From Gemmatimonadaceae bacterium (lineage in GTDB: Bacteria > Gemmatimonadota > Gemmatimonadetes > Gemmatimonadales > Gemmatimonadaceae): a stretch of DNA of 64,000 nt. Position 1 is the stretch's first letter, and every line of letters begins with the position of its first letter. Shown piece after piece: positions 34,363 to 46,073 of this stretch. Below the pieces are notes generated by a model that saw only the letters and a program-made list of their open reading frames with translations, had not been told where the DNA came from and did no database searches. The stretch is from assembly GCA_020846935.1 (NCBI GenBank), contig JADLCY010000002.1, positions 186,001 through 250,000 on the forward strand. The letters are read 5' to 3'. Position numbers and translations under genes: made by a program.

Positions 34363-35726
34363 CGACCGACGCTCGCGAGACCCGGGAAGCGCGCGAAGCG
34401 CGTGAGGCGCACGTGGCGGCCTACCGACGCCAGTGGAGTGAACCCGTCGACGGCCCCGCATGGCTGCGCGACCTGCGCGCACGGGCGATGGCGCGCTTCG
34501 AGGCGAACGGTTTCCCCACGCCACGGAACGAGGACTGGCATTTCACCAATCCCGCACCGATCACCGAAGCGGCCTTCGAGCCGATGAAGCCCGCACTGGG
34601 CACGCTGACGGTGAGCGACGTGGCGCCGTTCGCCCTCGCGAGCGAAGACTGGCCGACGCTGGTGTTCGTGAACGGCCGCTATGCCCCGCAGCTCTCCCGC
34701 GTGGACGCCCTGCCGGCCGGCGTGCGCGTGTTGAGCCTTGCCAGTGCGCTGCACGAGGAGCCGACGCTGCTCGAACGGCACATGGGACGCATCGCCGGCT
34801 TCGACGCGCAGGCGCTCGCCTTCTCGGCGCTCAACACGGCCCTGATGAAGGACGGCGCCGTGCTGTACGTCGAGCGAAATACGACCGTGACCACGCCGAT
34901 CCACCTGCTCTACCTCTCCGATGCCGGCGCCGAAGGTGGCGTGTCCTACCCGAGGAACCTGTTCGTCGTCGAGAGCAATGCCTCGGTCTCCGTGGTCGAG
35001 CAGTACGCGACGACCGACGACGCCCGTTACTTCACCGACTCCGTCACCGAGTCGATCATCGCCGATGGCGCCACGCTCCGGCACTACCGCGTGCAGCGGG
35101 AGGGTCGCCGCGCCTTTCACGTGGGCCACGTCGAGGCCACGCTGGGCCGCGATTCCCACTACGTCTCGTTCTCGTTCGCCAGCGGCGGCGCGCTGTCGCG
35201 CGCGAACATCTACGCCAACCTGGCCGGCGAGGGGTGCGGCGCCACGCTGAACGGTCTCTACATGATCGACGGCGAGCAGGTGTGCGATCACCAGACGCGG
35301 ATCGAGCACGCCCAGCCCAACTGCTACTCGCGCGAGATCTACAAGGGTGTGCTCGACGGCGCGTCGCACGGCGTGTTCAACGGCAAGGTGTACGTGCATC
35401 CCGTCGCCCAGAAGACGGACGGCAAGCAGACCAACAACACGCTGCTGCTCTCCGATCGCGCGCGCATCGACACCAAGCCGCAGCTGGAGATCTTTGCCGA
35501 CGACGTGAAGTGCACGCACGGCGCCACGGTGGGGCAGCTCGACGAGCGCATGGCCTTCTACATGAAGAGCCGTGGCGTCGGCGCCGAGCGCACGCGGCAG
35601 CTGCTCACCTACGCCTTCGCCGCCGACGTCCTCGAGACGATCGAACTCGACGGGGTCAGGGAGAGCCTGGAACGCATCGCGCTGGAACGGTTCGCCGGGG
35701 CAGAACCCCGGCCGGTCGCGTCGTGA
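34359..35726 (+). CDS. sufD: Fe-S cluster assembly protein SufD
   Basis: 455 residues. Conserved SufD landmarks are PTPRNEDWHFTNP near residue 55, the beta-helix region with NGLYMIDGEQVCDHQTRIEH, and the C-terminal KCTHGATVGQLDERMAFYMK segment with the conserved Cys/His. SufD pairs with SufB on the SufC dimer and is needed for iron acquisition. The first ~20 residues are an Arg/Glu/Ala repeat (TREAREAREAH), probably disordered. GTGA overlap with sufS. Confidence 0.95.
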   Translation: MTTDARETREAREAREAHVAAYRRQWSEPVDGPAWLRDLRARAMARFEANGFPTPRNEDWHFTNPAPITEAAFEPMKPALGTLTVSDVAPFALASEDWPTLVFVNGRYAPQLSRVDALPAGVRVLSLASALHEEPTLLERHMGRIAGFDAQALAFSALNTALMKDGAVLYVERNTTVTTPIHLLYLSDAGAEGGVSYPRNLFVVESNASVSVVEQYATTDDARYFTDSVTESIIADGATLRHYRVQREGRRAFHVGHVEATLGRDSHYVSFSFASGGALSRANIYANLAGEGCGATLNGLYMIDGEQVCDHQTRIEHAQPNCYSREIYKGVLDGASHGVFNGKVYVHPVAQKTDGKQTNNTLLLSDRARIDTKPQLEIFADDVKCTHGATVGQLDERMAFYMKSRGVGAERTRQLLTYAFAADVLETIELDGVRESLERIALERFAGAEPRPVAS

Positions 35727-36961
35727 CCACGCAGCTTTCGCCCGCGCTCGACGTCGCCACGCTCCGGGCGGACTTCCCGATCCTTGGCACCCTCGCCAGG
35801 GGCAAGCCGCTGGTCTACCTGGACAATGCCGGCACCAGCCAGAAGCCCCGGTCGGTGATCGAAGCGACCACCCGCTACTACGAGTCGGAGAACGCGAACA
35901 TCCATCGGGGCGTGCATTACCTGAGCGAGCGCGCCTCCGAACTCTACGAGGGGACCCGCGAAGCGGCGCGACGCTTCTTCAACGCCAGGCACGCGCACGA
36001 GATCGTGTTCGTACGCGGCACCACCGAAGGCATGAACCTCGTGGCGTCGGGGTTCGCGCAGGCCATCCTCCGGCCGGGTGACGAGGTCCTCGTCTCCGTC
36101 ATGGATCACCACTCGGTCCTCGTGCCATGGCAGCAGGCCTGCCTGCGGAGCGGGGCGAAGCTCGTCGCCATTCCGGTCATGGACGATGGAGCGCTCGACA
36201 TGGCCGCCTTCGAGCGCCTGCTCAACGAGCGCACCCGAGCCGTCGCGCTGACCTGGGTGTCCAATGCGCTGGGAACGATCAATCCGGTGCGCACGATCTG
36301 TGAACGCGCGCACGCCCGAGGCGTCCCGGTCATCCTCGATGGCGCACAGGCGGCCCCTCACCTTCCGGTCGACGTCCAGTCGGTCGGATGCGACTTCTTC
36401 GTGTGCTCCGGCCACAAGATGCTGGGGCCCACCGGCGTGGGCGTGCTGTATGGCAAGGAATCGTGGCTCGACCGACTCCCGCCCTACCAGACCGGCGGCG
36501 GCATGATCGACCTGGTCACCATCGAGCACAGCACGTGGGCCCGCCTGCCGGCCAGATTCGAGGCCGGGACGCCGGACATCGCGGCGGTGGTCGCGTTCCG
36601 CGCCGCGCTGGACTATCTCGAGGCGGTGGGCCTGGACGCTGTCGCGGCGCACGAACACGAGCTGGTCAGCTACGCCTCGGAGCGCGTGCGTGAGGTCAAG
36701 GGACTGCGCATCATCGGAACCACGCCGAACAAGGCGGGTGTGCTCAGCATCGTCATGGATGGCGCGCACCCCCACGACATCGGCACGATCCTCGACCAGG
36801 AAGGCGTAGCGATCCGGGCCGGCCACCATTGCTGCCAGCCGCTCATGCGCCGCTTCAACGTACCGTCGACGGCGCGCGCCTCGTTCTACCTGTACAACAC
36901 GCGCGACGACGTCGATGCGCTCGTGGCCGCGCTGCATCGCGTTGGCGAGATTTTCGGGTAA
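35723..36961 (+). CDS. sufS: cysteine desulfurase SufS
   Basis: 412 residues, group II PLP-dependent desulfurase that frees sulfur from cysteine. The internal aldimine Lys is Lys232 in CSGHKMLGPTGVG. The PLP phosphate region contains RGTTEGMNLVA, and LDGAQAAPH holds the PLP-pyridine Asp. The reactive Cys lies in RAGHHCCQPLM near residue 369. The N-terminal YLDNAGTSQKP differs slightly from the common NAAT. It partners with the SufU encoded two bases downstream. GTG start overlaps the sufD stop. Confidence 0.95.
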   Translation: MTTQLSPALDVATLRADFPILGTLARGKPLVYLDNAGTSQKPRSVIEATTRYYESENANIHRGVHYLSERASELYEGTREAARRFFNARHAHEIVFVRGTTEGMNLVASGFAQAILRPGDEVLVSVMDHHSVLVPWQQACLRSGAKLVAIPVMDDGALDMAAFERLLNERTRAVALTWVSNALGTINPVRTICERAHARGVPVILDGAQAAPHLPVDVQSVGCDFFVCSGHKMLGPTGVGVLYGKESWLDRLPPYQTGGGMIDLVTIEHSTWARLPARFEAGTPDIAAVVAFRAALDYLEAVGLDAVAAHEHELVSYASERVREVKGLRIIGTTPNKAGVLSIVMDGAHPHDIGTILDQEGVAIRAGHHCCQPLMRRFNVPSTARASFYLYNTRDDVDALVAALHRVGEIFG

Positions 36962-36963
36962 CC

Positions 36964-37389
36964 ATGGATCTCGGCGCGCTCTACCAGGACGTCATCCTCG
37001 ACCACAATCGGTCTCCCCGGAACTTCGGCGAGCTCGCGAAGGCCGACCGCAGTACTCATGGCCGGAATCCGCTCTGCGGCGACGAGGTCACGATCTGGAT
37101 TCGCCTCGACGGAGACGTGGTGGCCGACGTGTCGTTCGTGGGCACCGGCTGTGCCATCTCCCGGGCATCGGCCTCCATGATGACGCAGGCCGTGAAGGGA
37201 AAGAGCCGGCAGGAGGCTGCCGGGCTGTTCGAAGCGTTCCATGCGATGGTCACCGGACGCGGGCGCGACCCCGAGGCGCTTGGAAAGCTCAAGGTCTTCG
37301 CCGGAGTCGCTGGTTTCCCTACCCGCGTGAAGTGCGCCTCGCTGGCGTGGCACGCGCTGAAGGAAGCGCTCGACGGTGGCCCGGCCTGA
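36964..37389 (+). CDS. sufU: SufU sulfur-transfer protein
   Basis: 141 residues. The zinc ligands of SufU are visible: Cys38 and Asp40 (CGDE), Cys63 (GTGCAIS) and Cys124 (RVKCASLAW). The insertion between residues about 80 and 105 (AGLFEAFHAMVTG) separates SufU from IscU scaffolds. SufU accepts persulfide sulfur from SufS by zinc-ligand exchange, as in Gram-positive bacteria, and replaces SufE here. Starts two bases after sufS. Confidence 0.94.
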   Translation: MDLGALYQDVILDHNRSPRNFGELAKADRSTHGRNPLCGDEVTIWIRLDGDVVADVSFVGTGCAISRASASMMTQAVKGKSRQEAAGLFEAFHAMVTGRGRDPEALGKLKVFAGVAGFPTRVKCASLAWHALKEALDGGPA

Positions 37390-37705
37390 GGTGGAGCTGC
37401 CACTCTCGAGCCTCCCGAACCCCGGGCTGCTGCCCGTCAGGCTGCCGAACGGCGACCGCATCGTCCTGATCCGCCGCGGCAACATGGTCACGGCACTCGA
37501 AGACGAGTGTTCTCATCAGGCGATGCCGCTTTCTGCCGGCGAGCTGCTGACGGACGGCACCGTGCAGTGCCCATGGCACGGTGCACGATTCGACGCATCC
37601 AGCGGCGCCTGCCGTCAGGGCCCCGCGACGGACCCCGTGGCTACCTGGGTCGTGACCGTGACGGGCGACCGGGTCGTGATAGGCGCTCGGCAGTCGACGC
37701 CGTAA
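37376..37705 (+). CDS. Rieske-type [2Fe-2S] ferredoxin
   Basis: 109 residues from a GTG, overlapping sufU by 14 bases. One Rieske domain with Cys45-x-His47 (CSHQAMPLS) and Cys65-x2-His68 (CPWHGARFD), the motif pair holding a His-coordinated cluster. It resembles NirD-like or dioxygenase ferredoxins. Its position at the end of the suf operon suggests either a client or an electron donor for assembly; which one cannot be decided. Confidence 0.9.
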   Translation: MARPEVELPLSSLPNPGLLPVRLPNGDRIVLIRRGNMVTALEDECSHQAMPLSAGELLTDGTVQCPWHGARFDASSGACRQGPATDPVATWVVTVTGDRVVIGARQSTP

Positions 37706-38254: not shown

Positions 38255-39046
38255 CTACGCCGACGCCAACCTCGGCGACGCATAGGTCTCCGCCCCCACC
38301 GCTTTCCCCCAGGATTCCATCGGAGCGATCGCTGCCGGCCGCTGATGCAGCGGACGCACGCCTCGCGCCGACCGCTCGAAGAAGTGCGATCGCCGCAGCG
38401 ACGCCTCGAGCACCCATTCCCATCCGTACCGATTGTGGAACTCGCGCTCGGCAACGCCGAGCAGCTCGCGCATCGCACCTCGCAGCTCCGCCGACGTGTC
38501 ATCGTCGCCCGACATGGTGCGATTGAGCAGCGATCGATCGGCCGCCAGTTCGGCCAGCATGGCCGCCCGCTGCCATTCGAGGGCCGACCAGTCGCCCAGC
38601 ATGCGCATCTGCTCGCGCAGGGCATACGGCAGGAACGCGGCCTCGTTGCGACGAAGCGTGGGGCGAGAGAACAGGTCGGACAGCGTGCGCGCGAGGCTCG
38701 AGAGCCGCGTGCGACGGACGATCCAGTCCACGAGATCACTTGGCGTGGGCCGCGGTCGGCTCGACACCGCCTTCAGGATTCCCGACGCACCGTCGCCCTC
38801 ATCGAGACCGAACACCACACATGTGCGCGGCAGTCGACGCGTGGAACGCATGCCCGACTCCGAGTCGGCGAGCAGGCAGAGCGGGCACCAGGGCGCCTCT
38901 TCCATCTGGCCCTTCACATCGTTGGTCGTCGGGCGATCCACAACGGCGTCGAGCAACGCTACCGCACCAAGGGCGGGCGGCTGGTCCATCAGCCGGCGCG
39001 CCATCGTGTACGGAGGCTCGAGGATGAACAACGGCGAGTTCTTCAT
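38255..39046 (-). CDS. hypothetical protein with CxxC motif
   Basis: About 263 residues starting MKNSPLFILEPPYTMARRL. A CPLCLLADSE segment near residues 54-63 could bind metal or be redox active. The centre (about 110-200) is helical, rich in Arg/Leu/Glu, and the C-terminal part ends with Pro/Ser-rich sequence. No signal peptide or membrane helix. The ATG at 39046 fits a promoter with an operator-like dyad just upstream, suggesting a regulated gene. Not recognised as a named family. Confidence 0.65.
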   Translation of the reverse strand: MKNSPLFILEPPYTMARRLMDQPPALGAVALLDAVVDRPTTNDVKGQMEEAPWCPLCLLADSESGMRSTRRLPRTCVVFGLDEGDGASGILKAVSSRPRPTPSDLVDWIVRRTRLSSLARTLSDLFSRPTLRRNEAAFLPYALREQMRMLGDWSALEWQRAAMLAELAADRSLLNRTMSGDDDTSAELRGAMRELLGVAEREFHNRYGWEWVLEASLRRSHFFERSARGVRPLHQRPAAIAPMESWGKAVGAETYASPRLASA

Positions 39047-39238: not shown

Positions 39239-39922
39239 TCAGGGCTGCGGCTGGTCCGGCTCGACGACCGCCTCTTCGAGCGGCGCATCGCCCTCGGAGA
39301 CGTGCATCATGATCGCGAAACGCATCAGGCCCCATTCGGTTGTGATGCCAAGCGCCTTGCGAATGCTTGCGCGATGGAACTCCACGGTGCGCGGGCTCAC
39401 GCCCAGGTGTTCGGCGATGTCCTGTGTGGACTTGCCGTCACCGATGAGGCGCAGGATCTGGCGGTGGCGCGGGGTCAGGCGATCGAGCGCCGGATGTTCC
39501 ATGGCGGCTCCGTCGCGGAACGATCGTCGCGGAATCCTCGGCGAGATGAACGGCTTGGGGCTCGACAGCACGTGATCGATCGCCGAGTTGAGTTCCTCGG
39601 CGGACGATTCCTTGGGGATGAACCCGTGGGCGCCGGAGTTGATCGCCAGGTCCGCGAGCGCGCGGTCCACGTGCATGGTGACCACGAGCACCTTGACGTC
39701 CGGCGCGTGTTCACGCACCTGTGGAATCAGCTCGAGGCCGTTGACGTTAGGCATCGAGAGATCGAGCAGCAGGACGTCGGGCCGTGTCCGGTCGAGCGAG
39801 GAGAGCAGCTCGCGGCCGTCATTCACGACACCGACGGGCACGTAGCTCGCGCGCAGCAGGGCCTTGAGGCCCTGGCTCATGAGGGGATGATCGTCGCAGA
39901 TCAGGACAGCGGCGCGGCGCAC
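39239..39922 (-). CDS. NarL/LuxR-family response regulator
   Basis: 227 residues. The receiver domain (about 5-120) has the acidic pocket CDD (9-11), phosphoacceptor Asp54 (LLLD), and Lys in IPKESS. The LuxR-type helix-turn-helix (about 143-205) contains LTPRHRQILRLIGDGKSTQD and HLGVSPRTVEFHRASIRKAL. It follows the histidine kinase after six bases and closes the operon that begins with the two CPPFCPP proteins. It likely controls that operon or other targets. Confidence 0.93.
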   Translation of the reverse strand: MRRAAVLICDDHPLMSQGLKALLRASYVPVGVVNDGRELLSSLDRTRPDVLLLDLSMPNVNGLELIPQVREHAPDVKVLVVTMHVDRALADLAINSGAHGFIPKESSAEELNSAIDHVLSSPKPFISPRIPRRSFRDGAAMEHPALDRLTPRHRQILRLIGDGKSTQDIAEHLGVSPRTVEFHRASIRKALGITTEWGLMRFAIMMHVSEGDAPLEEAVVEPDQPQP

Positions 39923-39928
39923 GGAAGG

Positions 39929-40756
39929 TCAGTGCTCGAGGGGAACCGTGATGCGAATAGTGGTGCCACCGCCGAGCTTGGAAAAGAGGGAAAAATCGGC
40001 ATCGGCCAGGCGCGCACGTTCGGCCATGCTGATAAGGCCGAGGCCGCTCGCCCGGCGCGGATCGCCGGAATCGAAGCCCCGCCCATTGTCGATGATGCTC
40101 AGGACGAGGGCGTCCTTTGCAAGATCGACGCCGATTTCACCCCGGGTGGCTGCGGAGTGTTTGGTGATATTGCGCACAGCTTCCTGCGCCACGCGAAACA
40201 GGATGAGCGACCGCTCGCGGTCGAGGACCCGGTCGGTTGCGGTGTTCGGGATCCGAGCCACGATCTCGATCCCCGAGAGGCGCGTGGCGTCTTCGGCCAG
40301 CTGCGACAGCGCCGGAAGGAGGCCACCGTGTTCGATGATCGCCGGGTGCAACCGGTGCGCAACGCGCCGGAGCATCACGCCCAGGTCCTCGAGTTCGTGA
40401 CGCACCGCCTCGGAACGCAGGCGCTCCTTTCCCGGTTCGAGATTGCCGTCCATCCACTCGTAGACGTCGTGCTGGATCATGGCGACGCGCTGCAGCGCGT
40501 CGTCATGCACCTCACGGGCGACGTGAGCGCGCTCTTCCTCGTGGGCGGCGATCAGCTTCTTGGCGTATTCGCGATGGACGGCGAGAAAGCGCCGCTGGTA
40601 GAGCACCAGCGCGGCACCGAGCGCCGTGAGAATTACCGCGACGGCGAGGACGGCGCCGAGGTAGATGCCGAAGATGTTCGAGCCACCGGGCATGCGCGGT
40701 ACGGTGAGTGAGGGCGCGCGCTGAAGGTCCGCCGCCGTCACAACATAAGTCAGCAC
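39929..40756 (-). CDS. HisKA_3 sensor histidine kinase
   Basis: 275 residues. One transmembrane helix (about 29-52) is followed by a short linker and the dimerisation/phosphoacceptor segment EERAHVAREVHDDALQ, with His84. The HATPase domain (about 165-275) contains the N-box VAQEAVRNITKH and the G-boxes DNGRGFD and GLGLISMAER. There is little extracytoplasmic sequence, so sensing probably happens in the membrane or through the neighbouring polytopic protein. The GTG at 40756 or ATG at 40693 could be the start. Paired with the downstream response regulator. Confidence 0.9.
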   Translation of the reverse strand: MLTYVVTAADLQRAPSLTVPRMPGGSNIFGIYLGAVLAVAVILTALGAALVLYQRRFLAVHREYAKKLIAAHEEERAHVAREVHDDALQRVAMIQHDVYEWMDGNLEPGKERLRSEAVRHELEDLGVMLRRVAHRLHPAIIEHGGLLPALSQLAEDATRLSGIEIVARIPNTATDRVLDRERSLILFRVAQEAVRNITKHSAATRGEIGVDLAKDALVLSIIDNGRGFDSGDPRRASGLGLISMAERARLADADFSLFSKLGGGTTIRITVPLEH

Positions 40757-40880
40757 GTCGCCTCAAGCGGCTGGTGTCCGACCAGGCGCCGAATCTCCGG
40801 ATCTTGAAGGAGTCCTGGGAATCGGACGATGACCACGGGGCTGCGCCGCGACGTGCCCGCGCGCGCAGGCGAGCCCGCGC

Positions 40881-41633
40881 TCAGACCGTCAACGGCGACT
40901 GGGGCTCGGCGGCAGGAAGCGGGCGGCGCATGCCATACCACACCATGACGAAGGCCACGATGTCGACCGCGCCCTTCACGACGTAGACGAGGCGCGCGAG
41001 CTCCGGTTGATCGGGCAGAAGGGCGGCGGACACCGGATCGACCACCACGTAGGCCGCGTAGTACAGCGTGACGCCGAGTGACGTCCAGAGCCAGTCACGC
41101 TCCCATATGCGCTGTTGCTCGCGCGATGTCCGGACGACCAGCGTATACGTCACGGCCGTGGTGATGAGTAGCAGCCGGAAGGGCGACGATGCGGTCTTGA
41201 AAGTCGTCAGCTCACCAAACGCGATCGCGATGGCCAGGGTCACGAGGGCCAGGAGCGGGATGGCCACGCGGAACGACAGCCGCATGACGGGCCGCAGCTG
41301 CCAATACGAAAACGCCATCAGGAGCGTCGCATCCTCGATGGGGTTGGCGATCAGGAAGAACCACAGGTTGTCGACGCGCGCGAACGACGAGATGGCGACC
41401 TGCGAGAGGTCGCTCACGAAGAACGCGAGGCCCCACCACCCGATCCAGTACCGGGCGCGCGGCACCGGGCGTGGCAGGGCCAACACGGCAAGCGACGGCA
41501 AGAGCTGTGTCGCTACGGCCATGCCGATGATGGCCAACTGCCACGTGGGAATCACCCGGGGACTGAAGGGCAAGAGCGCCACTGTCAGCGCTCCGACGAT
41601 CAACCATCCCCACCATCCTCCGAGTGACTTCAC
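40881..41633 (-). CDS. polytopic membrane protein (about seven helices), unknown
   Basis: 250 residues with approximately seven hydrophobic helices (starting near 8, 36, 66, 95, 118, 150 and 183, with a further segment near 220). The N-terminus is MKSLGGWWGW. Conserved-looking aromatic/polar residues inside the membrane include WWGLAFFVSDLSQ and NPIEDATLLMAFSYW. The fold is reminiscent of small 7TM sensor or receptor domains. It lies between the CPPFCPP proteins and a kinase that has a single helix, so it is a candidate sensor or receptor. Family not recognised. Confidence 0.72.
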   Translation of the reverse strand: MKSLGGWWGWLIVGALTVALLPFSPRVIPTWQLAIIGMAVATQLLPSLAVLALPRPVPRARYWIGWWGLAFFVSDLSQVAISSFARVDNLWFFLIANPIEDATLLMAFSYWQLRPVMRLSFRVAIPLLALVTLAIAIAFGELTTFKTASSPFRLLLITTAVTYTLVVRTSREQQRIWERDWLWTSLGVTLYYAAYVVVDPVSAALLPDQPELARLVYVVKGAVDIVAFVMVWYGMRRPLPAAEPQSPLTV

Positions 41634-41645
41634 GTCCCGTGCAGC

Positions 41646-42029
41646 TTAGAGCGGCGAATCTGGGGGACAGAACGGCGGGCAGGGCCAGTGCCCGTCGAGC
41701 AGGACCGCATCGCCGAACGACCGGGCCACTGCACCGGACGCGAGCACCTTCTTCGTTCTGACGATGTCGTTGCCCGCGCGGTCGACGCCGACCAGCACCA
41801 TGCGGTAGCGCCCCTTGGCATCGAGGCCGTGATACACGCGCATGCCGTACACCTCGGGCTGCGCCAGCAGGTCGGCGATGCCCTTGGCAAAGAAGAACCC
41901 GGCCTTTTCAGAGGCCGGCGACGCGCGTTGGTGCCGCTTGGTGAGGTCGATCGCCGTCCCTAGGGAGATGCGCTGGTTCCGGGGCCTGGTGGGAATGCGC
42001 CCCGGCTTGTTGTCCTTGTAGTTCGCCAT
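41646..42029 (-). CDS. small protein with C-terminal CPPFCPP motif (paralogue B)
   Basis: 127 residues: basic N-terminus (1-20), a helix with ISLGTAIDLTKRHQ, then a beta unit MRVYHGLDAKGRYRMVLVGV followed by DRAGNDI (about 84-89). An insert follows, then the terminal motif LDGHWPCPPFCPP (111-123; Cys117 and Cys121). It aligns with the upstream gene along its length, so the two are paralogues. No signal peptide. It is 23 bases from paralogue A and 12 from the membrane-protein gene. Function unknown; the invariant Cys-Pro end suggests binding, modification or metal coordination. Confidence 0.75.
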   Translation of the reverse strand: MANYKDNKPGRIPTRPRNQRISLGTAIDLTKRHQRASPASEKAGFFFAKGIADLLAQPEVYGMRVYHGLDAKGRYRMVLVGVDRAGNDIVRTKKVLASGAVARSFGDAVLLDGHWPCPPFCPPDSPL

Positions 42030-42052
42030 GTGAATATCCCGGTGAATGGTCG

Positions 42053-42397
42053 TCAGCCGCGCAGGTCGCTGCTGTCGGGTGGGCAGAATGGGGGGCAGGG
42101 CCAGTGGCCGTCCAGCGTCGTCTCGGTGAGGTCGTTCCCGGCGGCGTCTGCCGCAACCAGCACCAGTTCGGGATTGCCCCTGGCGTTGGTGCCGTAGTAG
42201 AACCGCAGATACTTCGCGTCGGCCCGCTCCAGCAGCTTGGTCACGGCCTTCTTGTCAAATGCCCCACCCAGGGCCCCGGGCTTCATTGCGCCACGCTTTC
42301 CCTTCGTGGTCGCCTTCACGGCCTTGCGGTGCCGATCAGTGAGCTTTGCTGCCGCCTTGAGCGAGATCTTGTGTGACTTCGACTTGCGAGCCGCCAT
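42053..42397 (-). CDS. small protein with C-terminal CPPFCPP motif (paralogue A)
   Basis: 114 residues: Lys-rich N-terminus (1-40) with ISLKAAAKLTDRHRK, a helix AFDKKAVTKLLERAD, a beta unit LRFYYGTNARGNPELVLVAA with DAAGNDL (about 84-90), and LDGHWPCPPFCPPDS (95-109; Cys101 and Cys105). Identical to paralogue B in the terminal motif but lacking its ~20-residue insert. First gene of a five-gene operon, about 95 bases behind a promoter with an embedded palindrome. I recall small proteins with a similar G-x-D-x-x-GND-then-CPP layout in Bacteroidota; this is not confirmed. Confidence 0.75.
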   Translation of the reverse strand: MAARKSKSHKISLKAAAKLTDRHRKAVKATTKGKRGAMKPGALGGAFDKKAVTKLLERADAKYLRFYYGTNARGNPELVLVAADAAGNDLTETTLDGHWPCPPFCPPDSSDLRG

Positions 42398-42499
42398 GGT
42401 CCCGACCTCCCGGTCGACGCGTTGTGGAATGCCTCGCTCCTCCGACGCGCGCGGCGGAGCAGGAGATGCCCGGGGCAGAGTAGCGCCGAGCTCGCGACC

Positions 42500-42528
42500 A
42501 GAATACTGGGGGTAACCCCAGTGTCCAG
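42500..42528 (-). promoter_or_regulatory. promoter of the CPPFCPP operon with palindrome in the spacer
   Basis: On the minus strand: -35 CTGGAC (42523-42528), 17-base spacer, -10 TATTCT (42500-42505). The spacer contains the perfect dyad ACTGGGG-N4-CCCCAGT (plus-strand 42505-42522). A dyad filling the spacer is typical of MerR-type activators or of repressor operators. Confidence 0.5.
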
Positions 42529-42546: not shown

Positions 42547-45024
42547 CTACCCCTCAACGTCGAGCGCCGAGCGAACCGCCGTCCGGAGTGCCTCTGGAGT
42601 GAAGGGTTTGGCCAGAAATGCCTCGCCGGCGGCGTGCGACTCGGGCTCCTGCTGATAGCCGGAGATGAACAGGGCGCGCATCCGGGGGCGATCGAGCCGG
42701 AGCCGCCGAACCAGCTCGCGCCCCGACATTTGCGGCAGGACCAGGTCGGTCAGCACCAGGTCGATCCCGAGCGCCATACCGGCCTCGGCGAGCGCTGCCC
42801 CGGGATCGCTGGCCTCCATGACCGCATACCCGGCCAAGCGGAGCACCCGAGCCGCGAGGGCACGCACGCGATCGTCGTCTTCGACGAGCAGGACGGTTTC
42901 GTGCCCGCCGGCGCCGGCACCGTGCGTAGGAGCCGCGTGCTCGTCGGTGTTGCCAACCGCCACCGGCAGGTACACCGAGAAGGTCGTCCCAAGTCCCGGC
43001 TCGCTGATCATTCCGAGGGCACCGCCGCTCTGTTGCACGATCCCATACACCGTCGACAGGCCGAGTCCGGTCCCGGAGGCCTTGGTGGTGAAGAAGGGCT
43101 CGAACATGTGGGAGCGGGTTTCTTCGTCCATGCCGATGCCGGTGTCTGCCACCTCGAGCACTACCAGAGGCCCGTGCGCGGCATCCGCGCCCACCAGCAC
43201 TCCGGGATCGAGCCGTGCCGCCATGCGCGTGCGCAGCACCAGACGCCCGCCGTTGGGCATCGCGTCGCGCGCGTTGACGGCGAGGTTGAGGATCACCTGC
43301 TCGAGCTGGCTCGGATCAGCCAGAACGTGCGCTACCTCGGGGTCGAGGTCCGTCACCAGCTGAACGTCTTCTCCGATGAGTCGCCGGAGCAGCGGCTCGA
43401 TCCCCTGCACGACCGCGTTGGCGTTGAGCACGCGCGGCTCCAGCACTTGCCGGCGACTGAAGGCGAGGAGCTGCCTCGTGAGTGCCGCCGCGCGATGGGC
43501 CGCCGACGTGATCTCCTTGAGGTCGATCGCCGCCGCCGGCGGCAGATCAGGCCGGATCGATGCGATCTGCGAGTAGCCGATGATGGCGGTGAGCAGGTTG
43601 TTGAAGTCGTGGGCGACGCCGCCAGCCAGACGGCCGATCGCCTCCATTTTCTGCGACTGCTGCAGCTGGGCCTCGAGCTGCCGCCGATGGGACACGTCGC
43701 GCACGATCGCGAGGACCTCGATGGCGCCGTTGCCACGATCGATGCGCTGCACGGTCGCCTCGACGCTCACACGGCCGCCGGCCGGGCGCTGCACGGTCAG
43801 TGACATGGCCTCGCCCACCGGGCGCTCCGAGCCGAGCAGTGCCTGAAGGGCGCCTTCCGCGACCAGCAGCTCCGAAGCCACGAGCAACTCCACGAACGGT
43901 CGGCCGAGGATCTCCTGCGCCGATCGCTGGACAAGGCGCGACGCGGCGTCGTTCGCCGATGTCACGCGGAGGTCGCGGTCGAGCGTGAACATGCCGTCCA
44001 GGGCATACTCCCACAGTTCGCGATACCGGGTCTCGCTCTCGCGCAGTGCTCCCTCGGCGCGCCGCCGCTCGTTGCTTTCGATGACGAGCGCCAGCAGGTC
44101 GGCGATCGACGCGACAAAGACGTGCTCGTCGCCGCGCCAGCGGCGAGAAGCCCCCTCGTGGTCGACACAAAGGGCACCAACCATGTCTCCACGAAACCGG
44201 ATCGCGGCGTCGAGTTGCGTGGTCGCGGTCGCTGGCTCCACGGGCCGTGGATCGCCGCAGCCGTCGTGCGATTCGACGTATCGACTGTGCGCGAGGGCAC
44301 CGAAGTAGTCGGGGTATCCGGCGACGTCATACGCCCGCCCGCTCGAGTGCTCGCGCGTGTGCGCGTCGTACGCCTGCACGCACCGGAACACGCGACCGCC
44401 GGCCTCGAACATCCAGATGGATGTGCGATCCACGTCGAGCGCGCGAGCCACCATCTCCGTGAACATGCGGTAGATCGCGGTGGCGTTGCCGGACGTGAAG
44501 TCACCGGAGCGCAGCAGCTCGAAGATCGCGGCGCTCGCGTCGTGCATCCGCCGATCGTGTTCGCGTTCCTCGCGCCGGATGCGCGCCCGCTCACGGCGCT
44601 GTGCCCCCTCGACCAGCTCGCGCTGTACGACGGGAACCAGGCGCTGCAGCCGATCTTTGGACACGAAATCTCTGGCGCCGGCCCGCATCGTCTCGACCGC
44701 CCGATCTTCGCCGGCTACACCGGAAATCACGACGCACGGCAGGTCGCTGTCGGCCTCGCGGAGCAGTTCGAGCACGGCCAGCGCACCAAAGTTGGGCTGC
44801 GAATAGTCGGCGATGACGAGCTCCCACGACCGCTGCGCCAGCGCCTTCCGGAACGAGGGGGCGTCGTCGACGCGGGTGATGTCGACCGAGAGCCCGCCAC
44901 GACTCAGCGCGCGGCGCACCAGCTCGGCGTCATCTTCGGAGTCGTCCACCACGAGGATCGCGTGGGCGCCCTGCGACGGCGGCACGGGCGTGCTGTGCAC
45001 GCCGGAGTCGAGCGGTTTCAGCAC
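42547..45024 (-). CDS. hybrid histidine kinase (REC-GAF-PAS-HisKA-HATPase-REC)
   Basis: About 825 residues from a GTG that overlaps the upstream ABC ATPase gene by seven bases. Order: receiver (about 22-140, ILVVDDSEDDAEL), GAF (about 190-340), PAS (about 355-480), HisKA with His in GGVAHDFNNLL, HATPase (N-box NLAVNARDAMP, TGIGMDEETRSHMFEPFFTT), and a C-terminal receiver (LLVEDDDRVRALA, LTDLVLPQMSG). There is no membrane helix, so it is soluble. Coupling to a molybdate-type transporter is unusual; a ligand or redox cue sensed by GAF/PAS is plausible but not shown. Confidence 0.92.
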   Translation of the reverse strand: MLKPLDSGVHSTPVPPSQGAHAILVVDDSEDDAELVRRALSRGGLSVDITRVDDAPSFRKALAQRSWELVIADYSQPNFGALAVLELLREADSDLPCVVISGVAGEDRAVETMRAGARDFVSKDRLQRLVPVVQRELVEGAQRRERARIRREEREHDRRMHDASAAIFELLRSGDFTSGNATAIYRMFTEMVARALDVDRTSIWMFEAGGRVFRCVQAYDAHTREHSSGRAYDVAGYPDYFGALAHSRYVESHDGCGDPRPVEPATATTQLDAAIRFRGDMVGALCVDHEGASRRWRGDEHVFVASIADLLALVIESNERRRAEGALRESETRYRELWEYALDGMFTLDRDLRVTSANDAASRLVQRSAQEILGRPFVELLVASELLVAEGALQALLGSERPVGEAMSLTVQRPAGGRVSVEATVQRIDRGNGAIEVLAIVRDVSHRRQLEAQLQQSQKMEAIGRLAGGVAHDFNNLLTAIIGYSQIASIRPDLPPAAAIDLKEITSAAHRAAALTRQLLAFSRRQVLEPRVLNANAVVQGIEPLLRRLIGEDVQLVTDLDPEVAHVLADPSQLEQVILNLAVNARDAMPNGGRLVLRTRMAARLDPGVLVGADAAHGPLVVLEVADTGIGMDEETRSHMFEPFFTTKASGTGLGLSTVYGIVQQSGGALGMISEPGLGTTFSVYLPVAVGNTDEHAAPTHGAGAGGHETVLLVEDDDRVRALAARVLRLAGYAVMEASDPGAALAEAGMALGIDLVLTDLVLPQMSGRELVRRLRLDRPRMRALFISGYQQEPESHAAGEAFLAKPFTPEALRTAVRSALDVEG

Positions 45025-46073
45025 AGGTGGACAGCGAATGCCTTGAAGCTCACATGGACCTCGGCGCCAACGGCCAGGTCGAGATCGTGGAGCGAAGGTA
45101 TCGTCAGGAGGGCCACGAGCGGAACGCCCTGCACCGTCACGATGACCCTCACGTAGGCTCCGTACGCCGCAACTTCGCTCACGGTTCCCGTGAAGTTGTT
45201 CCGCGCCGACGATGCAGGTCGCGCGCGGGCAAGGACCACCTCCTCGGCACGAATCACGGCGTGGCATGGACCGGGTCGGGCCGGGCTCACACTATGGATC
45301 GTGAGCGGACCGCAGCGCACCTCCATGGCTCGCGCGACTCCGTCGTCGCCCGTGACGGCCCCGTCCACCACACGGGCCTCGCCCTCGAGCACATTCTCGG
45401 CGCCAAGGAACTCGGCAACGTATGGCGTGGCCGGGCGTCGAAATACCTCGGCGGCCTCACCGGCCTGCAACACCCGCCCGCCATCGAGCAGCACGATCAC
45501 GTCACCAAGGAGCCCTGCCTCGGCGAAGTCGTGCGTGACGTGCAGGACCGTCATGCCACGCTCCCGATGCAGGTCGCGCACGTAGCGCCGCACCATCGTG
45601 CGGCGCCGCGGGTCGAGGGCGCTGAACGGCTCGTCGAGGAGGAGCACCGAGGGTCGCTGCGCGATGGCCCGCGCGAGCGCGACGAGCTGGCGTTCACCGC
45701 CGGAGAGCCCGCGAACGTCACGCCCGCCAAGCGCCGACACGCCGAACGCCTCCATGGCCTCGTCGGCGTGCGACTGTTCGGCGGCGCCGTACGCCACGTT
45801 GTCCCGCACCGTGAGGTGCGGAAACAGATAGGCGTGCTGATACACGAGGGCCACACCACGTTCGTGCACCGGCCGAGTGGTCACCTCGCGCGTGTCGATG
45901 AACACTTGCCCCGCGGTGGCCGGGATCACGCCGGCGATCGTTTCGAGCAACGATGTCTTGCCGGAGCCCGCCGGTCCGATGACGACGCCAAACGCGCCGC
46001 GCGGCACCTCGAACGACACGTCGTCGAGGGCGAACTCGCCGAGTCGCGTCCCAAGGCGTCGACACTCGATCAT
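45018..46073 (-). CDS. molybdate/tungstate-type ABC transporter ATPase
   Basis: 351 residues. Walker A GPAGSGKTS (33-41), Q-loop near 81, signature LSGGERQ, Walker B VLLLDEPFSALD and switch His VTHDF. A C-terminal domain (about 230-351) with VIRAEEVVLA and SEVAAYGAYVRVIV resembles the TOBE/MOP oxyanion-binding module of ModC/WtpC/CysA. It overlaps the permease gene (ATGA). The substrate is inferred to be molybdate or tungstate, in keeping with the Mo enzyme genes in the window; sulfate-type is an alternative. Confidence 0.86.
   Translation of the reverse strand: MIECRRLGTRLGEFALDDVSFEVPRGAFGVVIGPAGSGKTSLLETIAGVIPATAGQVFIDTREVTTRPVHERGVALVYQHAYLFPHLTVRDNVAYGAAEQSHADEAMEAFGVSALGGRDVRGLSGGERQLVALARAIAQRPSVLLLDEPFSALDPRRRTMVRRYVRDLHRERGMTVLHVTHDFAEAGLLGDVIVLLDGGRVLQAGEAAEVFRRPATPYVAEFLGAENVLEGEARVVDGAVTGDDGVARAMEVRCGPLTIHSVSPARPGPCHAVIRAEEVVLARARPASSARNNFTGTVSEVAAYGAYVRVIVTVQGVPLVALLTIPSLHDLDLAVGAEVHVSFKAFAVHLC

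Follow-up and report, generated by a model that had tools for sequence, protein, structure and literature searches.

A conserved operon of the Gemmatimonadota combining small Cys-tail proteins, a seven-helix membrane protein, a kinase and a response regulator

In UhpABC, a separate membrane sensor, UhpC, feeds the kinase UhpB and a NarL-type regulator; UhpC is transporter-like, with about 12 helices. In LiaFSR of Bacillus subtilis, the accessory membrane inhibitor LiaF is combined with an intramembrane-sensing kinase and a regulator that controls its own locus (PMC3543457). Small proteins with cysteine motifs are represented by CutF and CruR (DUF2946), exported nascent-chain copper sensors in which about 45 residues separate the Cys motif from a Pro stalling motif at the C-terminus (PMC9973294, PMC9426467). 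Finally, Sco, a thioredoxin-fold protein tethered to the membrane on the periplasmic side, has a CxxxC copper site and a distant His ligand (PMC7558416). The locus described here recalls these systems in different respects. Its likely separate membrane sensor, UhpB-like kinase and NarL-type regulator resemble UhpABC, but the membrane protein has about seven helices and no match to the MFS or another transporter family. With LiaFSR it shares an accessory membrane protein, a kinase of the intramembrane-sensing type and a regulator that probably controls its own operon; however, it has no LiaF-family protein (among 29 members, no Pfam match connects the membrane protein family with a named one), and LiaFSR has no small Cys-tail protein. 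A small, Pro-ended protein with a Cys motif at the operon head is reminiscent of CutF and CruR, but its family has neither a DUF2946 match nor an export signal, and Cys and Pro coincide in the tail. The CxxxC spacing is that of Sco, and one family member reads CPDVC, yet here it is found in the C-terminal tail of an unrelated small domain and the resemblance is chemical only. The system is best read as analogous to LiaFSR or UhpABC and as a member of neither.

The window, i.e. the whole stretch of 64,000 nucleotides that was analysed, contains this locus as a five-gene operon on the minus strand, reaching from 42397 to 39239. All five reading frames were confirmed as given in a preliminary description. 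Two small paralogues, small protein 1 (114 aa, 42053..42397) and small protein 2 (127 aa, 41646..42029), are followed by the seven-helix membrane protein, here called 7TM (250 aa, 40881..41633), a histidine kinase (39929..40756) and a NarL/LuxR-type response regulator (39239..39922). The gaps of 23, 12, 124 and 6 bases between them were also found as reported, with the third becoming 187 bases if the kinase begins at a better-supported methionine (MPGGSNIF, 40693), which is its likely true start. In comparison with genus relatives, every gene of the operon has a dN far lower than its dS; therefore these genes are real and under purifying selection.

The kinase matches HATPase_c (E 9e-12), while its match to HisKA_3, the family named at first, is sub-threshold (19.7 bits versus a cut-off of 24). 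Among the NCBIfam models it resembles UhpB, MctS and NarX, the UhpB match being below its cut-off. The kinase motifs HDDALQ, DNGRGF and GLGL, together with the receiver and helix-turn-helix of the regulator (Response_reg and GerE, in line with the earlier LuxR-type assignment), place the two proteins among the two-component systems. The kinase had been noticed to be almost without a sensor; it has one transmembrane helix (residues 33-51) and no sensor domain. Hydropathy averaged over 29 homologues of the 7TM protein gave the expected seven hydrophobic peaks, to which the window protein adds one extra N-terminal helix. No Pfam family was matched by more than one of these 29 members. A microbial rhodopsin was considered and rejected, since the retinal-binding Lys of helix 7 occurs only in close relatives.

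We read the operon as a self-regulated two-component system with a separate input module, composed of the 7TM protein and the small Cys-tail protein(s), and assign this reading a probability of roughly 0.55. The preliminary description had proposed the membrane protein as sensor for the kinase. This is well in keeping with our results: a sensor-less kinase with one transmembrane helix needs a partner and the 7TM gene is invariably linked to it, which makes the 7TM protein the candidate, and likely the sensor subunit. The kinase would most likely receive the signal by contacts of its transmembrane helix with the 7TM protein.

The linkage was surveyed across the phylum in 298 genomes. Members of the small family, detected in relatives with E values down to about 1e-38, are present in 31 of them, and for 32 the 7TM family has good support, four additional matches being weak. 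All 31 carriers of the small family possess a 7TM gene, 30 according to the survey and one (G019) by inspection of the locus, where a diverged 7TM gene is located directly beside the small gene. The co-occurrence yields a Fisher p of about 1e-37, a value which overstates independence because the genomes are related. The full order of one or two small genes, 7TM, kinase and regulator was found in 27 loci from three families, with many stop/start overlaps, often of 4 bases (for G039, G037 and G045 the 7TM gene was dropped by an overlap filter yet is present), and three further loci are cut by contig ends. Gene order and co-occurrence thus support the earlier proposal of one conserved signalling unit, and far from occurring mainly without the membrane protein, the small proteins were found in no genome that lacks it. 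A point against the proposed module is that the correlation of evolutionary distances is lower between small and 7TM proteins (rho 0.46) than between kinase and regulator (rho 0.81). In plasmids, phages and viral contigs no credible relatives were found, and a scan of contigs returned a genus relative as sole match.

Deviating loci show which parts belong together. In three genomes (G019, G020 and G188) the small and 7TM genes are followed by a kinase that is membrane-anchored but belongs to another class (HATPase_c, with an NtrB/VirA-like core), and a regulator gene is missing. Retention of the pair beside a swapped kinase shows that the two genes move together and that the kinase can be exchanged. 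A sensory pair plugged into two unrelated kinases represents a natural experiment on the separation of sensing from the kinase. Arrangements of a small gene and a 7TM gene with a different membrane-anchored kinase, lacking the regulator, are located at L114 7148-9514 (minus strand), L115 5461-8097 (minus strand) and L092 3593-6193 (plus strand), and in each a DinB-like gene comes next. Conversely, G113 and a second locus of G056 have one or two 7TM genes, kinase and regulator but no small gene. This lets us conclude that 7TM and kinase form the core and that the small protein is sometimes dispensable. In G056 the two 7TM genes stand in tandem (L112 5588-6894, plus strand) ahead of kinase and regulator. 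Such loci would also be expected if the small protein were the effector of the pathway, for storage, stress or metal buffering, and the 7TM-kinase-regulator part merely its dedicated regulator, a view with which the position of the small gene directly downstream of an operator-like palindrome agrees as well. However, a mere target gene does not readily account for the strict pairing of small and 7TM genes, which holds also at loci with a changed kinase and regulator, and we consider an effector role of this kind quite improbable.

The two small proteins of the window have identical ends, as first noticed: the tail is LDGHWPCPPFCPPDS in small protein 1 (42071..42115) as well as in small protein 2 (41655..41699), both on the minus strand. 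The codons differ at 9 of 15 positions; therefore the second gene is not a fresh copy. A low-confidence model shows the body of small protein 1 as a helix plus beta-hairpin. All 40 complete small proteins have a C-P-x-x-C motif near the C-terminus, which reads CPPxC in 38 of them and otherwise CPDVC or CPFDC, with mostly F, Y or W as residue four. The tail is nearly invariant across the whole order, and this short C-terminal segment is the most conserved part of the protein.

A tree of the family points to one old duplication, which gave rise to copy 1 and copy 2 in the genus of the window and in two further genera; for G030 only copy 1 was found. Six genomes retain the two copies, so that the paralogues are conserved, whereas only one small gene is present at most other loci. 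In the same tree the bodies of the small proteins cluster by copy and not by genome. Within these six related genomes, however, the tails of the two paralogues match each other above expectation (a match this good arises in only 2 of 720 permutations). Shared tail residues are encoded by different codons at 38 of 73 positions, about as many as between orthologues, and recent gene conversion of the tails was rejected on this ground. Matching tails despite diverged bodies and codons would follow if one partner had to accommodate both of them. Seen in six related genomes, the match is no more than suggestive, but it points to a common partner that selects both tails rather than to recent gene conversion; old gene conversion may still be its source.

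Several of these features would also suit peptide signalling, that is a pheromone or autoinducer circuit in which the CPPxC tail, perhaps disulfide-closed, is released from a precursor and sensed outside by the 7TM protein, which then acts on the kinase. The small genes stand at the operon head, conservation is concentrated in a short C-terminal segment, the two tails of a genome resemble each other as two precursors for one receptor would, and the operon appears to be self-regulated. In G041, where the small genes lie on the far side of the regulator, two small units share one open frame on another contig, which likewise speaks for such signalling. But the small proteins show no hydrophobic signal segment or transmembrane helix, and in the flanks of the fetched loci no exporter, protease, processing or modifying gene is found repeatedly, though an unlinked exporter may exist. 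Moreover, the body of the small protein is better conserved than the 7TM protein (mean identity 0.37 versus 0.25), as suits a partner subunit more than a fast-evolving pheromone, and near-invariance of the tail over a whole order is unlike typical pheromones. We regard a released peptide as quite unlikely. Two fused units of the small family, each with CPPFC, were seen in one open frame at a contig end (L032 3965-4666, minus strand). Another reading, in which the Cys-Pro tail would be the cognate ligand of a separate seven-helix receptor and the signal would pass laterally to an exchangeable sensor-less kinase, thus constituting a ligand-receptor pair of a new type, appears unlikely to us.

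The likeness to CutF and CruR raises the question of a nascent-chain regulator, with a Pro-rich tail that stalls the ribosome according to metal or redox state and thereby sets translation of the downstream 7TM gene, as in the copper genes controlled by these two (PMC9973294, PMC9426467). Besides the precedents themselves, the similar size, the first position in the operon, the Cys motif and prolines near the C-terminus and the short gap to the next gene argue for it. On the other hand, neither DUF2946 nor any other Pfam family is matched, the coincidence of Cys and Pro and the missing signal segment differ from the CutF/CruR layout, and in G041 a tail lies inside one open frame. The boundary between small and 7TM genes has no RNA structure signal (mean z -0.24, s.e. 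0.20, 26 loci), by which an RNA switch at this position was rejected as well. Translational control of this type is very unlikely.

In the two-component system with separate input module that we prefer, the small protein, having no signal peptide, would most likely be found at the cytoplasmic face of the 7TM protein and kinase. There it might gate them through the thiol pair of C-P-x-x-C, a potential site of metal or haem binding or of a disulfide bond. The preliminary description had suggested ligands, adaptors or modified products as roles of the small proteins, and each of these may apply. Should the tail prove to bind haem or a metal, or to be redox-responsive, a new sensing chemistry would come from a phylum in which little genetics has been done.

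The self-regulation in this reading is derived from a palindrome, CTGGGGTTACCCCCAGT, at 42505..42521, which is probably the operator recognised by the regulator. A version of it occurs at the equivalent position upstream of small gene 1 in each of the seven loci of the window's group. In other loci, a palindrome particular to the locus lies about as far upstream; several of these, including in another family, take the form CTAGGGnnnnCCCTAG. Compared with shuffled sequences, an upstream palindrome is present in most loci (combined p 3e-9), but not in control stretches 600-740 bases upstream (p 0.77). The exact sequence is found once in the genome, at the operon promoter. Because a palindrome precedes the small gene in most loci, the NarL-type regulator probably controls its own operon. 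When phosphorylated, it would bind upstream of the small genes and adjust operon expression, and probably that of a sixth gene, too. A search of the genome for a wider regulon found, beyond the own promoter, only sites with two mismatches, at the level of controls. One such copy is located just upstream of a gene for a 750-aa protein (L126 position 1534, G000 contig 11), possibly by chance.

The small and 7TM families, searched singly and as families against Pfam, NCBIfam and PDB sequences, gave nothing credible, and in agreement with the preliminary description we found no literature on the tail motif or on an operon of such composition. Both families are thus unnamed and undescribed in the databases and literature searched, and add two protein families to bacterial signalling. 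Structure models were computed from the sequences of the window and a single relative; they came out poor (pLDDT 47 and 50), so no fold supports the proposed mechanism, and a Foldseek search with them gave noise only. As a lead, similar CPPxC-ended small proteins may exist in Bacteroidota.

The sixth gene (38255..39046, minus strand), of an unnamed family, is located 3' of the regulator gene in the two-copy group. It occurs in 10 of 60 genomes of relatives, nine of which have the system (p 1.6e-4, not corrected for phylogeny); in G054 and G055 it is unlinked to it. Judged by eye, its product is perhaps receiver-like with an AraC-like helix-turn-helix, and it is a possible output or extra regulator. 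Fragments of the protein read 'ILEPPY...APWCPLCLLA...GWEWVLE'. Directly upstream of the operon, and in the same orientation, there is a gene for a hybrid PAS/GAF histidine kinase with two receivers (42547..45267, minus strand), an association which is weak and was seen within the genus only. Genes for a WtpB/WtpC-like anion ABC permease and ATPase (46918-45018, minus strand), with no adjacent binding-protein gene, are also co-oriented upstream and recur there in five loci of the two-copy group. For these and the hybrid kinase, the association may be mere synteny. The preliminary description had mentioned neither of them, nor the sixth gene, the palindrome or the conservation of the whole unit. 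On the other side of the operon lie SUF-type genes for a cysteine desulfurase, a SufU-like and a Rieske-like protein (about 35700-37705, plus strand), and this synteny is kept in several relatives.
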